Part shown: piece by piece, positions 33,763-48,434 of the stretch
Position numbering within the stretch: the stretch's first letter is position 1
How the letters are laid out: every line of letters starts with the position of its first letter
Source of the DNA: Alphaproteobacteria bacterium MarineAlpha12_Bin1
Lineage (GTDB): Bacteria > Pseudomonadota > Alphaproteobacteria > UBA6615
DNA length: 64,000 bases
NCBI GenBank assembly: GCA_002937505.1
Contig: PTJY01000002.1
Span: 310,001 to 374,000, forward strand
Direction: 5' to 3'
Made by a program: the position numbers and the translations under genes
Notes under the pieces: generated by a model
The model's database searches: none
Told to the model about the DNA's origin: nothing
What the model saw: the letters and a program-made list of their open reading frames with translations, nothing else

Positions 33763-34632
33763 TTAATCCACTGAATTGAGTTTTTTCAAGATTACATCTA
33801 ACTGATCAAGTGATTTATATTTAATTGAAATAGTACCGGACTCACCACTCATATTAGAACTATTAATTGTTACATTTAAACCTAAGGCTTGAGATATCTC
33901 TTTTTCTAACGCTATTGTGTCTTGGGTTTTACTTTTTGTTTTTCTACTTTTTGTGAACCCACTATTTTTAGCTGATTGGACTAACTCTTCAGCTTGTCTC
34001 ACAGAAAGCTGTTTTAAAACAATCTCTTTAGCAAGTGCTTCAGCGTTAGTTATGCCAACCAATGTTCTTGCGTGACCTGATGAAAGCTCACCAGTATCAA
34101 TATATTTTTGAACCGTATCGGGCAATGTAAGTAAACGAAGAGTGTTTGCTATACTACTTCTACTTTTCCCAACTGATTTTGCTAGATCTTCCTGTGTTTG
34201 GTAAAACTCATTCATTAATCGTTCATAAGCTCTAGCCTCTTCAAGGGGCGATAAGTCCTCACGCTGTAAGTTTTCTATTAAGGCAACTTCTAGAGCCTTT
34301 TCATCAGATAGCTCTTTGACTAATACCGGTACTTCGTGCAACTGGGCCTTTTGTGCAGCGCGCCACCTACGTTCACCAGCTATTATCTCGAAGTTCCCTT
34401 CAATGTATGGGTCACGTCTTACAAGAATAGGCTGTAAAATGCCGTTTTCTCTTATTGATTCTTCTAAAGAGAACATTTCACTGTCTGAAAAGCTTTTGCG
34501 TGGTTGGTATTTTCCTGGAGTTAAAAACTCGATCGGAACCAACTGATTGACACCAAGCTCTTTTGAGCCAGAATCATCTCCTAAAAGCGCTGACAAACCT
34601 CTGCCTAGACCCTTCCTTTGCTCTGCGCTCAT
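33763..34632 (-). CDS. parB: Chromosome-partitioning protein ParB
   Basis: 289 residues. An N-terminal KGLGRGLSALLGDD motif is followed by the CTP-binding fold with GERRWRA (Arg box) near 85-95. A helix-turn-helix region (about 135-185) contains LAKSVGKSRSSIANTLRLLTLP and SSGHARTLVG. The C-terminal dimerisation segment is at about 240-289. It spreads from parS and slides as a CTP-dependent clamp. The start overlaps parA by 4 bases, and a perfect parS site lies 1.4 kb upstream in rsmG. Confidence 0.97.
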   Translation of the reverse strand: MSAEQRKGLGRGLSALLGDDSGSKELGVNQLVPIEFLTPGKYQPRKSFSDSEMFSLEESIRENGILQPILVRRDPYIEGNFEIIAGERRWRAAQKAQLHEVPVLVKELSDEKALEVALIENLQREDLSPLEEARAYERLMNEFYQTQEDLAKSVGKSRSSIANTLRLLTLPDTVQKYIDTGELSSGHARTLVGITNAEALAKEIVLKQLSVRQAEELVQSAKNSGFTKSRKTKSKTQDTIALEKEISQALGLNVTINSSNMSGESGTISIKYKSLDQLDVILKKLNSVD

Positions 34633-35468
34633 GCAGCCTCTCCTTCAGATAAACGCCCATCACCGCGCAATATTTCAGCCGCTAAGCGCATATAGGCTCG
34701 AGCTCCTGTACAATTCATATCATAAACAATCGCCGGAAGCCCAAAAGATGGCGCTTCTGAAACTCTAACGTTGCGTGGAATTACAGTTTTATACACTAAT
34801 GAACCAAAATATTCACGTACATCAGCTTCCACGGACTTACATAAATTATTTCTTCCATCATGCATTGTTAAAACTACCCCTTGAATAAATAATTTTGAGT
34901 TAAAAGCATTCCTAATTCTATCAATTGAACGTGATAGCTGGCCTAAACCATCCAGTGCAAAAAACTCACACTGCAGGGGCACTAGCACAGAATCAGCCGC
35001 TACCAAAGCATTTAGCGTTAAGAGCCCTAATGCAGGGGGACAATCAATTAAAATATAATCATAAAGATCAGGTATTTCTTTTAAGGCAGCTTTAAGTCGT
35101 GCCTCACGCTGATTAAGCTCAATCAGTTCGATCTCAGCGCCTGCTAAATCAGCGCTCGAGGGAATAATCTCCAATCCGGTAATGGCTGTTGACGAAATTG
35201 TATCAGACAATGTGCAATCGCCAATTATTGCAGAATATATTTCCTTTTCTGTGCGCGGTCTCTTAACGCCCAATCCAGTTGTAGCATTACCTTGAGGGTC
35301 TAAATCCACCAAAAGAACCCTTAAACCGCTTGCAGCAAGCGCTGTAGCTACATTAATTGCAGTTGTCGTTTTGCCAACACCGCCCTTTTGATTGGCGACA
35401 GCTATAGTCTTCGTTCGAATAGGCTCTTTTTCCTGACTTAGCTCGCTTTTGGATGTTTCAGCAGACAC
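34629..35468 (-). CDS. parA: Chromosome-partitioning ATPase ParA (Soj)
   Basis: 279 residues, deviant Walker A KGGVGKTTT (28-36) preceded by a short, probably flexible 20-residue tail. Other motifs: VLLVDLDPQGNATTG (switch I) and ILIDCPPALGLLTLNAL. It is the ATP-dependent DNA-binding partner that moves ParB-parS. The start overlaps rsmG by 11 bases and its end overlaps parB by 4, so rsmG-parA-parB is one transcript. Confidence 0.97.
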   Translation of the reverse strand: MSAETSKSELSQEKEPIRTKTIAVANQKGGVGKTTTAINVATALAASGLRVLLVDLDPQGNATTGLGVKRPRTEKEIYSAIIGDCTLSDTISSTAITGLEIIPSSADLAGAEIELIELNQREARLKAALKEIPDLYDYILIDCPPALGLLTLNALVAADSVLVPLQCEFFALDGLGQLSRSIDRIRNAFNSKLFIQGVVLTMHDGRNNLCKSVEADVREYFGSLVYKTVIPRNVRVSEAPSFGLPAIVYDMNCTGARAYMRLAAEILRGDGRLSEGEAA

Positions 35469-36084
35469 GATTGAACTCCTTTACACACACTATAGTGCCC
35501 TCAGGGCTCGAAAGACTAGGGAACAATTCATATTTAATATCCCAAAAGTGTTTCGCGTCGGTCAATTCATCTTCTACAGAAGCTCCTTTTAAAAAATAAC
35601 ACTCCCCCCCGGGTAAAACCCAGGGTTCAGAAAGCTCAAGTAAGCGCGCTATAGGCGCTAAAGCTCTAATTGTCACTACGTCTGCTGGTGAAGCCTTTAT
35701 GTTTTCCGCTCTCTCAGCCAGAACGGAGGCATTAGAGAAAGTGGCTCGGGACGCTTCGCGCAGAAACGCCGCTTTCCTTTTATCTGCCTCAATCAGAGTG
35801 GTCGAACAACCAGAAATAATAGAGACAACCAGACCAGGAAACCCTGCACCACTGCCAATATCAACAACATTTTTCATATGTAGGGGGGTTAAATTACAGA
35901 TCTGACCGCAATCAAGAAAGTGTCGTCTCCATATATCGTTTAATGTGCTTGTACCAACAAGATTTATAGTTTTTTGCCATCTACGAAGTAGTTTTTCAAA
36001 AATCTCCAAACGGTCCAGTGTTTCACGTGAAACATTTAACAATTCAGCCATTTGCAAGCTAGACAGCGGAAAATTATCTTGCAT
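35458..36084 (-). CDS. rsmG: 16S rRNA (guanine-527-N7) methyltransferase
   Basis: 208 residues, SAM-dependent RsmG (GidB). The SAM loop is VVDIGSGAGFPG near residues 69-80, then TLIEADKRKAAFLREA and the catalytic VTIRALAP region. It methylates G527 of 16S rRNA. The N-terminal NVSRETL (17-23) is encoded by DNA that contains a perfect parS palindrome. It lies 68 bases after mnmG and overlaps parA, in the classical alphaproteobacterial gid-par block. Confidence 0.95.
   Translation of the reverse strand: MQDNFPLSSLQMAELLNVSRETLDRLEIFEKLLRRWQKTINLVGTSTLNDIWRRHFLDCGQICNLTPLHMKNVVDIGSGAGFPGLVVSIISGCSTTLIEADKRKAAFLREASRATFSNASVLAERAENIKASPADVVTIRALAPIARLLELSEPWVLPGGECYFLKGASVEDELTDAKHFWDIKYELFPSLSSPEGTIVCVKEFNRVC
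36019..36034. promoter_or_regulatory. parS: parS centromere site
   Basis: A perfect 16-base palindrome TGTTTCACGTGAAACA, the consensus ParB-binding parS, within rsmG codons 17-22 (NVSRET on the minus strand). Its own ParA and ParB are encoded 0.6-2.3 kb away. No other perfect copy was noticed elsewhere in the window. Confidence 0.95.
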
Positions 36085-45051: not shown

Positions 45052-46094
45052 TATTTACTATCTTTCTCTTTACAGGGGCACTGATCCCAGCCGTTTGGAC
45101 AAATACGTTTTACATCTCCACTTAAAATAAAGTTTGATTCAGAATGAGCAACATCAACTAGGCGGGCTAGTCCATTAATAAATTCATTAGATATACTGAC
45201 CGTAGGAACTCGAAAGAAGCTTTTCACTCCTGCCATCTCACTATATTTTTTATATTCGATATCTAGCTCCACAAGGGTTTCTGAGTGTTCTGAAACAAAA
45301 GCTATTGGGACTATAACTATACTTTTTCCATCGTCACCCGCCCGGGTTATTTCTTCCTCTGTTGAAGGACCAATCCACTCAAGGGGTCCAACACGGCTTT
45401 GATAACAAATAACCCAATCCAAATCTTTTACAGCAATTTCTTTTACAATTGCCTTAGCGGTTTGCTCTATTTGCCACTGATATGGATCACCCTTATTAAT
45501 TATCTTTTGAGGCAAGCCATGCGCTGAAAATAGAATCCGTTTTTCTATAATATCGTCTAAATAATTAGTTTTTCTTATTAAAGAAACAATCGACTCTATA
45601 AATCCTTTTTCATAAGGATAGCAACAAATCGTTTTAGTGGGACAATTTAAATCTATTTTATCAACCGCTTTTTTCCAAACCTTAATAAATGAACCAACTG
45701 TTGTTGTTGAAAACTGCGGATAAAGGGGTAGTAAAATAATTTCATCGGGCTGAAAAGATTTAACTTGTTCAGCAACCTGATTTGTCATTGGATGCCAATA
45801 TCTCATGGCCACAAAAGTTTTATAAACATGGTCTTTATCTTGCGATAAAGTGGTATTTAAAGCCTCTGCTTGTGCAATTGTGTTTTGGAGAAGGGGTGAT
45901 CCGCCTCCTAAATGTTCATAAATTTCTTGTGCCAACTTAGCTCTACGACTTGATATTAGTTTTGCCAAAAACCATCTCAGGGGTGTTGGCAGATTAATAA
46001 TCATGGGATCACTAAAAAGATTAAAAAGGAAACTTTTTATATCTTCTTTTTTTTCAGGACCTCCTAAATTATAAACAACAACCGCAATTTTCAT
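45051..46094 (-). CDS. hemH: Ferrochelatase
   Basis: 347 residues, the HemH fold: VVYNLGGPEKKEDIKSFLFNLFSDP at the start, PLYPQFSTTTVGSF and the catalytic His of LFSAHGLPQKIINKGDPY, and the C-terminal EHSETLVELDIEY. It inserts iron into protoporphyrin IX at the membrane. The C-terminal tail has C332, C339 and C341 (CPNGWDQCPC), which could hold a metal or [2Fe-2S] cluster, as reported for some alphaproteobacterial ferrochelatases; other cysteines would be needed. The start overlaps hemE by 4 bases. Confidence 0.95.
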   Translation of the reverse strand: MKIAVVVYNLGGPEKKEDIKSFLFNLFSDPMIINLPTPLRWFLAKLISSRRAKLAQEIYEHLGGGSPLLQNTIAQAEALNTTLSQDKDHVYKTFVAMRYWHPMTNQVAEQVKSFQPDEIILLPLYPQFSTTTVGSFIKVWKKAVDKIDLNCPTKTICCYPYEKGFIESIVSLIRKTNYLDDIIEKRILFSAHGLPQKIINKGDPYQWQIEQTAKAIVKEIAVKDLDWVICYQSRVGPLEWIGPSTEEEITRAGDDGKSIVIVPIAFVSEHSETLVELDIEYKKYSEMAGVKSFFRVPTVSISNEFINGLARLVDVAHSESNFILSGDVKRICPNGWDQCPCKEKDSK

Positions 46095-47125
46095 CCTTTC
46101 CCTCCAGAGCGGATAAAATTTGCAAGAATTTCAACATTTTCTGGCGGAGTTTCAGGGATAATTCCATGACCTAAATTAAAAATAAAAGGTCCTTTATTTA
46201 AGGTGTTTATAATATTACTTGTACTATTTAGCATTGAATTACCGCCCACCAATAACGCTATTGGGTCTAGATTTCCCTGAATTGCAAATTTAGGTTGTAG
46301 GCAGTTTGCTGCAAATTTAGGGGATACAGAACTATCAATACTTAAACAGTTAACACCTGTTTCCTCAGCATAATGTGATATAGCTGTTCCTATGCCTTTT
46401 GGAAATCCAATAAATTTAGTTTTCGGTTTTATCTGTCTAACACGGTTTATTATCCTCTGTGTTGGTTCAATAATTAATTTTTGAAACTGATCCGCTGGTA
46501 CTACACTTGCCCAAGTGTCGAATAATTGTATTACGTCAGCCCCTGATTCTACTTGCCCAACTATATAATCACATGTGCTATCTACTATTAAATTAATAAG
46601 TTTACTAAAGCTATTAGGATCATTTCGAGCCCATTTCTTAATAGAAACAAAATTTCTACTAGTGCCTCCCTCTACCATGTAAGTTGCCACAGTCCAGGGA
46701 GAACCAGCAAACCCTATCAATGCAACATCCTCAGGAATTTTTTCCTTAACTAACTTTACGGTTTCAAATATTGGACTAAGTTTTTTATCACAATTTATGA
46801 GTGATAAACCTTTTAAATCTTTGGTTGTCCTAACAGGATTTAAACAAGGACCAATACTTTCTTTAAATTCTACCATTTGACCTAATGCGTGCGGAATAAC
46901 AAGAATATCAGAAAACAAGATAGCTGCATCCGGATGAAACCGATGAACTGGTTGAAGTGTTATCTCGGCAGCAATTTCGGGTTGATAACAGAGATCGAGA
47001 AATGAAGTAGTACGTTTTCGAATATCTCTATATTCTGGTAGATAACGTCCTGCTTGACGCATAAACCAAAATGGTGGTCTGGGTAAGATTTTTCCTTCAA
47101 GAGATAATAAAATGAGTTTAGACAA
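46091..47125 (-). CDS. hemE: Uroporphyrinogen decarboxylase
   Basis: 344 residues, with the N-terminal RPPFWFMRQAGRYLPEYRDIR that opens HemE, then ILFSDILVIPHALG, GFAGSPWTVATYMVEGG, and QLFDTWAS. It converts uroporphyrinogen III to coproporphyrinogen III. It is the first gene of the hemE-hemH-hemJ operon (4-base and 1-base overlaps) and flanks the presumed replication origin, as in Caulobacter and Rickettsia. Confidence 0.97.
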   Translation of the reverse strand: MSKLILLSLEGKILPRPPFWFMRQAGRYLPEYRDIRKRTTSFLDLCYQPEIAAEITLQPVHRFHPDAAILFSDILVIPHALGQMVEFKESIGPCLNPVRTTKDLKGLSLINCDKKLSPIFETVKLVKEKIPEDVALIGFAGSPWTVATYMVEGGTSRNFVSIKKWARNDPNSFSKLINLIVDSTCDYIVGQVESGADVIQLFDTWASVVPADQFQKLIIEPTQRIINRVRQIKPKTKFIGFPKGIGTAISHYAEETGVNCLSIDSSVSPKFAANCLQPKFAIQGNLDPIALLVGGNSMLNSTSNIINTLNKGPFIFNLGHGIIPETPPENVEILANFIRSGGKG

Positions 47126-47215
47126 TTTCTATATTTCTTTTTTTTAATCAAAGTTAGTAAATTTATTTAACTATGTATTATGCGTTTGAAAATTCTTTTT
47201 TCTAGGTTTAAATCA

Positions 47216-47230
47216 TTAATATAAAATTAA
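47216..47230. promoter_or_regulatory. CtrA-type recognition motif in the origin region
   Basis: TTAA (47216-47219), 7 bases, TTAA (47227-47230), the Caulobacter CtrA consensus. CtrA represses the origin in Caulobacter. The region is AT-rich, so a chance match is possible. Confidence 0.3.
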
Positions 47231-47410
47231 TTAGTTATGTTTGCTGTTGTAGTAATGCTTTGAAAAATGGGATTTAAATTTTATCCTCATACATGATTTA
47301 TATATGAATAGGTTTTCATTAGATCTTACTTTTTGTGGACAATTTATCTAAGCCTAAGAATTGTATGATATTATTATGATTATATTTGATGGGTGACATG
47401 AGGATATTCG

Positions 47411-47419
47411 TGTGGATAA
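47411..47419 (-). promoter_or_regulatory. Perfect DnaA box
   Basis: TGTGGATAA on the plus strand, TTATCCACA on the minus strand: the exact consensus DnaA-binding site, at the centre of five DnaA-box-like elements in the presumed origin. Confidence 0.75.
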
Positions 47420-47576
47420 GATAATAAATAAATTTGATCCACACATGGTTAAAGGTTTTGTTCTCCTGAGTATGAAACTGTTAATTATAAAGTTCTATTA
47501 CTGAATAATATTTTTGAAACTCAACATTTATTGAGTTATCTACATTATCTAAAAATTTTCAACAGGGAATAAATCG

Positions 47577-48434
47577 ATGGCGAAACAATTTTCGACATCT
47601 GACTATAATCAAAATCAGTCTTTTGACTTTCATCTGGTTTCGGATTCCACAGGAGAAACTATTCATTCTGTTGCTCGTGCATGTTTAGTTCAATTTGAAG
47701 ATGTTGAGCCCGTAGAACATGTTTGGCCAATGGCAAGGACGAAGCATGCTATGAAAGTTGTCTTGGAAGCAATCGAAGCGAAGCCAGGTCCAGTTATGTT
47801 TACTTTAGTTGATGAAACACTACGGGAACAACTAAGAGATGGATGCAGGCGTCTCAAATTACCATGCATATCTGTTCTTGATCCAGTAATTGCGGCTTTG
47901 GGACAATTCTTGGGCGCACAACCTATTCACAGAATTGGTGGCCAACATGAAATGGATGCCGAGTATTTTCACAGGATAGAGGCAATGGATTGGGCTTTAG
48001 CTCATGATGATGGCCAAAGGGCCGAAGAATATGATGATTCTGACGTCATATTGGTGGGTGTGTCGAGAACTTCCAAAACTCCTACTTGTCTGTACTTAGC
48101 TAATCGTGGAGTAAGAGCAGTAAATGTTCCTTTTGTACCAGGAATTCCGTTACCAAAAATTCTTGATCAAGTAAAAAACGCAATTGTAATTGGGCTTACG
48201 AATGATCCTAAAAGACTTGTGGAACTGAGGCGTGCAAGATTGGCTATTCTCAAACAGGAAGGAGAAAACCCATATATAGACTTGGAACAAGTTAAGGCCG
48301 AAATAACTCAGGCGCGGCGATATTTTAACGAAAAAAACTGGCCTGTTATTGATGTAACGAGACGGTCTATAGAGGAAACAGCGGCAGCCGTAATGGCTCA
48401 ATTGTCAAGGCATGAAGAAAATAGAGTTAAATAA
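47577..48434 (+). CDS. ppsR: Pyruvate phosphate dikinase / PEP synthetase regulatory kinase-pyrophosphorylase (DUF299)
   Basis: 285 residues. It opens FHLVSDSTGETIHSVARA, the DUF299 start, and carries the P-loop GVSRTSKT (161-168) followed by KTPTCLYLANRGVRAVNVPFVPG. It switches pyruvate phosphate dikinase or PEP synthase on and off by ADP-dependent phosphorylation and phosphate-dependent dephosphorylation of a Thr. Which of the two is the target cannot be told from this window. It is the first gene on the right arm of the origin. Confidence 0.93.
   Translation: MAKQFSTSDYNQNQSFDFHLVSDSTGETIHSVARACLVQFEDVEPVEHVWPMARTKHAMKVVLEAIEAKPGPVMFTLVDETLREQLRDGCRRLKLPCISVLDPVIAALGQFLGAQPIHRIGGQHEMDAEYFHRIEAMDWALAHDDGQRAEEYDDSDVILVGVSRTSKTPTCLYLANRGVRAVNVPFVPGIPLPKILDQVKNAIVIGLTNDPKRLVELRRARLAILKQEGENPYIDLEQVKAEITQARRYFNEKNWPVIDVTRRSIEETAAAVMAQLSRHEENRVK

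Follow-up and report, generated by a model that had tools for sequence, protein, structure and literature searches.

The intergenic region between hemE and a gene of the COG1806 family contains the mapped chromosomal origin of Caulobacter crescentus and the predicted origin of Rickettsia prowazekii, and a cluster of at least four DnaA boxes is regarded as indicative of an origin (PMC1914354). CtrA sites are absent from most alphaproteobacterial origins (PMC4468827), the phosphorelay is weakly conserved in Rhodospirillales, in which dnaA is not conserved near the origin (PMC8116508), and both Pelagibacter and Granulibacter are devoid of ctrA (Brilli et al. 2010, PMC2877005). The BUS, or DnaA-trio, module of Bacillus subtilis has been predicted in 85% of 2070 origins; in this model TAG repeats lie 5' of a box by an AT-rich tract, with 3'-GAT-5' trios on the 5' tail (PMC8287927), and the published BUS program demands at least three trios.

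The window analysed here, a whole stretch of 64 kb (C5:310001-374000, C5 being the contig), belongs to a low-GC alphaproteobacterium which is kin to marine Rhodospirillales MAGs and whose genome (2.34 Mb, 12 contigs) is 100% complete. An earlier note on this DNA had proposed the hemE/ppsR gap as the origin of replication, pointing to the origins of Caulobacter and Rickettsia beside hemE, in agreement with the literature (PMC1914354). Our results make it almost certain that this gap is the chromosomal oriC, predicted at a locus known for the class. The same locus being used in Caulobacter and Rickettsia, the origin is an ordinary one; what the analysis provides is the origin of an uncultured lineage fixed by several independent lines, together with the correction of a guess about CtrA.

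The hemE/ppsR gap as the predicted origin

The genes hemE and ppsR, both identified through Pfam, diverge from the gap (Table 1), whose AT content lies above that of its surroundings, GC amounting to 39.8% across the 64-kb window. Size, composition and Pfam assignments agree with the gene-free, AT-rich gap of the earlier note, and the AT-rich flank that it claimed was recovered by measurement. No Rfam match was obtained across positions 46500-48000, and no terminator-like site was found. The start codon of hemE was taken as called, and the HemE match of the closest relative starts only at residue 10, so that the left border of the gap may move by some tens of bases.

The cumulative GC skew, computed on C5:160001-490747 (331 kb of the 2.34 Mb, on one contig of the 12), reached its minimum at window position 46882, 0.25 kb to the left of the gap, where the earlier note would place it; the skew was -0.035 over 130 kb to the left and +0.095 over 130 kb to the right. 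The exact parS sequence, present as a single copy in the whole genome, appears in a neighbourhood comprising parA, parB, gidA and gidB.

Five DnaA boxes with at most one mismatch were observed in the gap, all of them where the earlier note had read them, against an expectation of 0.20; no dinucleotide shuffle out of 2000 contained as many. No perfect box other than TGTGGATAA occurs in the window. Perfect boxes showed no enrichment throughout the genome (20, versus 26 for a reversed control pattern), indicating that the signal resides in the cluster and not in any single box. Across the 331 kb of contig C5, the gap is the only 450-bp stretch holding at least three boxes with at most one mismatch. 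The dnaA gene is located at C5:459943, 103 kb from the gap, and no such box occurs beside it between C5:457000 and 462000; hence no denser cluster exists either at dnaA or elsewhere in these 331 kb.

Any divergent intergenic region of this kind must contain the promoters of hemE and ppsR, and five promoter-like matches were indeed detected in the gap, as would be expected if it were merely a divergent promoter region, with boxes devoted to transcriptional control and the origin located elsewhere. However, that number equals the shuffle mean of 5.0, whereas the skew minimum, the uniqueness of the cluster and the nearness of parS favour an origin, and dnaA has no rival cluster of its own, making the promoter explanation highly improbable. 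The assignment of the gap as oriC therefore derives from the skew minimum, the unique box cluster, the conservation of the boxes and the presence of parS and parAB at 11 kb.

Table 1. Features of the predicted origin and its neighbourhood, in window coordinates
Feature	Position	Strand	Remarks
parB (33763-34632), parA (34629-35468)	33763..35468	-	Pfam
parS TGTTTCACGTGAAACA	36019..36034 (C5:346019)	.	inside gidB (rsmG); 11 kb from oriC
hemE, uroporphyrinogen decarboxylase	46091..47125	-	TTG start as called; Pfam URO-D
Predicted oriC, hemE/ppsR intergenic region	47126..47576	.	451 bp, 23.5% GC
AT-rich hemE-side stretch, probable DNA unwinding element	47126..47250	.	14-20% GC
TTAA-N7-TTAA, CtrA-like by sequence only	47216..47230	.	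judged chance
GTAGT trio-like element, then GGGAT (GTAGTAATGCTTTGAAAAATGGGAT)	47249..47273	+	two trios only (TAG TAA)
DnaA box TTATCCTCA, 1 mismatch	47281..47289	+	relatives carry TGATCCGCA in that column
DnaA box TTGTCCACA, 1 mismatch	47334..47342	-	perfect in sister species (TTATCCACA)
DnaA box TTATCCACA, perfect	47411..47419	-	TGKGGATAA conserved, six aligned gaps
DnaA box TGATCCACA, 1 mismatch, = Caulobacter G-box	47435..47443	+	TTTRATCCAC conserved in six gaps
DnaA box TTATCTACA, 1 mismatch	47536..47544	+	conserved as TTATC[CT]
Weak box TTTTCAACA, 2 mismatches	47556..47564	+	kept in 5/6 aligned gaps, TTATCAACA in sixth
ppsR / DUF299 / COG1806 kinase-pyrophosphorylase	47577..48434	+	Pfam Kinase-PPPase

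Conservation of the boxes among alphaproteobacterial gaps

The hemE/ppsR gaps were taken from 53 loci by means of a protein search in named genomes and relatives, yielding 47 distinct gaps after extraction, with the window's own copy counted. Altogether these gaps contain 88 boxes versus 6.5 in shuffles, the commonest being TTATCCCCA (13 occurrences), TGATCCACA (12) and TTATCCACA (11), each expected about 0.2 times; TGATCCACA is the G-box of Caulobacter (PMC4285127). The six near gaps can be aligned, and in this alignment the DnaA boxes stand out as blocks, with a constant spacing between the perfect box and the G-box in all six. Compared with the closest relative, 53 of 54 bases are identical in the boxes and 318 of 397 in the rest of the gap (Fisher P = 2.5e-4). 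A profile built from the gaps of other genera found a single match in the 64-kb window, at 47397-47570 (E = 5e-5). With a more distant profile, covering the whole family, the gap scored no better than E = 0.95; conservation at the sequence level thus extends only to near relatives.

The weak box at 47556 overlaps the ppsR leader and could instead be a translational signal. A second block, located at 47454-47486 around CTGTTNAT, is conserved in all six near relatives and contains no good DnaA box; it may act as a weak box, as an IHF site or as the promoter of ppsR.

The CtrA-like motif and the distribution of ctrA

The earlier note had taken the TTAA-N7-TTAA motif in the gap as a hint of cell-cycle control by CtrA. 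Although the motif is present, it occurs at chance level (0.17 expected in shuffles of the gap, P(>=1) = 0.15), is broken by a substitution in the sister species and is absent from the hemE/ppsR gaps of both congeners. Three further copies were found in the window, at 35081, 40523 and 48576, and no exact Caulobacter-style TTAA-N7-TTAACCAT exists in the whole genome. A half-site, ATGGTTAA at 47445, was considered and dropped, being missing in relatives and lacking a regulator.

Genomes were searched for the regulator with a Caulobacter CtrA query, which recovers orthologues of up to 82% identity throughout the class. This query detected no ctrA orthologue in the present genome (best match 33% identity), where the earlier note had proposed to look for one, nor in the two congeners, whereas it retrieved orthologues of 69-72% identity in seven genomes of the family. 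Neither chpT nor flhA was found in this genome or its two congeners, all 95-100% complete, and gcrA and ccrM are present in the genus despite the absence of ctrA. In flagellated relatives, the distance between ctrA and flhA on the same contig is about 4-6 kb (G003, G005, G008, G010, G024 and G032), and three genomes are without both genes (G007, G011 and G013); the exceptions are G009, which has CtrA without FlhA, and G012 (74% complete), in which the reverse is the case. This presence pattern across the family links ctrA to the flagellar cluster, and the proximity of both genes in relatives together with their joint absences suggests that ctrA was probably lost in the genus along with the flagella.

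An origin operating under CtrA as in Caulobacter, with CtrA-P blocking DnaA at the motif at 47216, could invoke the existence of that motif. Nevertheless, the missing orthologue and the missing chpT, as well as the chance level and poor conservation of the motif, speak against it, and a review indicates that CtrA sites have not been seen in origins beyond Caulobacter and possibly Rickettsia (PMC4468827), so that this alternative is scarcely credible. Since the genus lost ctrA, chpT and flagella, CtrA has no part at this origin, and the proposal of CtrA control is wrong.

A putative opening site and comparison with described origins

From the arrangement of the gap we infer a course of initiation in which DnaA would bind the perfect box as well as four or five that are weaker, the G-box among them, and the resulting filament would grow toward the hemE side. 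The AT-rich stretch next to hemE would then open, probably aided by contact with single-stranded DNA at GTAGT; helicases would subsequently load, two forks would depart, and ParB would capture the sister origins at parS. Control would probably be exerted by DnaA itself and, indirectly, by the retained GcrA and CcrM.

As regards the place of unwinding, the 50 bp of lowest GC are found in most gaps on the hemE side, 310-430 bp from ppsR. The whole gap being AT-rich, composition alone does not resolve this place in the present species. The GTAGT element, situated between the AT-rich tract and the DnaA boxes, provides a lead as a putative DnaA-trio-like opening site. Of the 44 gaps retained after removal of near-duplicates, 28 carried GTAGT on the plus strand and a single one carried it on the minus strand, with nine expected from shuffles; the combination GTAGT-N10-45-GGGAT was present in 16 gaps on the plus strand and in none on the minus strand, with 0.6 expected, these counts being uncorrected for shared ancestry. 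In all 26 gaps tested, the 60 bases 5' of GTAGT were poorer in GC than the rest of the gap.

It could be argued that GTAGT instead belongs to a regulatory leader of hemE or serves as the site of a different protein. The window holds just two trios, and a search under the BUS rule, which asks for three or more trios no farther than 16 bp from a box carrying up to two mismatches, returned NAN-type runs whose score was matched by 26% of shuffles. However, the strand specificity of GTAGT, its nearly constant location on the AT-rich hemE side, preceded by GC-poorer sequence, and the frequent occurrence of GGGAT boxes downstream are more in keeping with an opening site, leaving to the leader or foreign-site explanation an appreciable probability, clearly below even. 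On the preferred reading of GTAGT as an opening element, it is a testable candidate for the alphaproteobacterial opening site, which the cited literature does not address for this class. We tentatively propose, with confidence a little short of even, that hemE-type origins share a strand-specific and CtrA-independent unwinding element, consisting of an AT-rich tract, GTAGTAG and then weak boxes of the GGGGATTA type, and that lineages losing ctrA together with flagella, this genus among them, may operate such an origin with DnaA alone. This element resembles the BUS module in its TAG trinucleotides by an AT-rich tract and in its strand order, 5'-trios then box-3', but differs from it in having only two trios here and degenerate adjacent boxes.

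With regard to whole origins, the gap shares with Cori of C. crescentus (hemE/CC0001) its flanking genes, a similar size, an AT-rich part and the G-box (PMC1914354, PMC4285127). Cori itself carries five CtrA sites, two G-boxes and five W-boxes, whereas the gap described here contains the perfect box TTATCCACA and no CtrA sites, in a genome without ctrA. The predicted origin of R. prowazekii (hemE/COG1806) is alike in flanking genes, AT-richness and size (PMC1914354), but CtrA sites have been proposed in it (PMC4468827) and none exist here. By gene content, the basis of this comparison, the present genome resembles those of Pelagibacter and Granulibacter, in which ctrA was not found either (PMC2877005). 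Unlike them, however, it retains gcrA and ccrM, and the genus thus represents a further CtrA-free case in which GcrA and CcrM have been kept.
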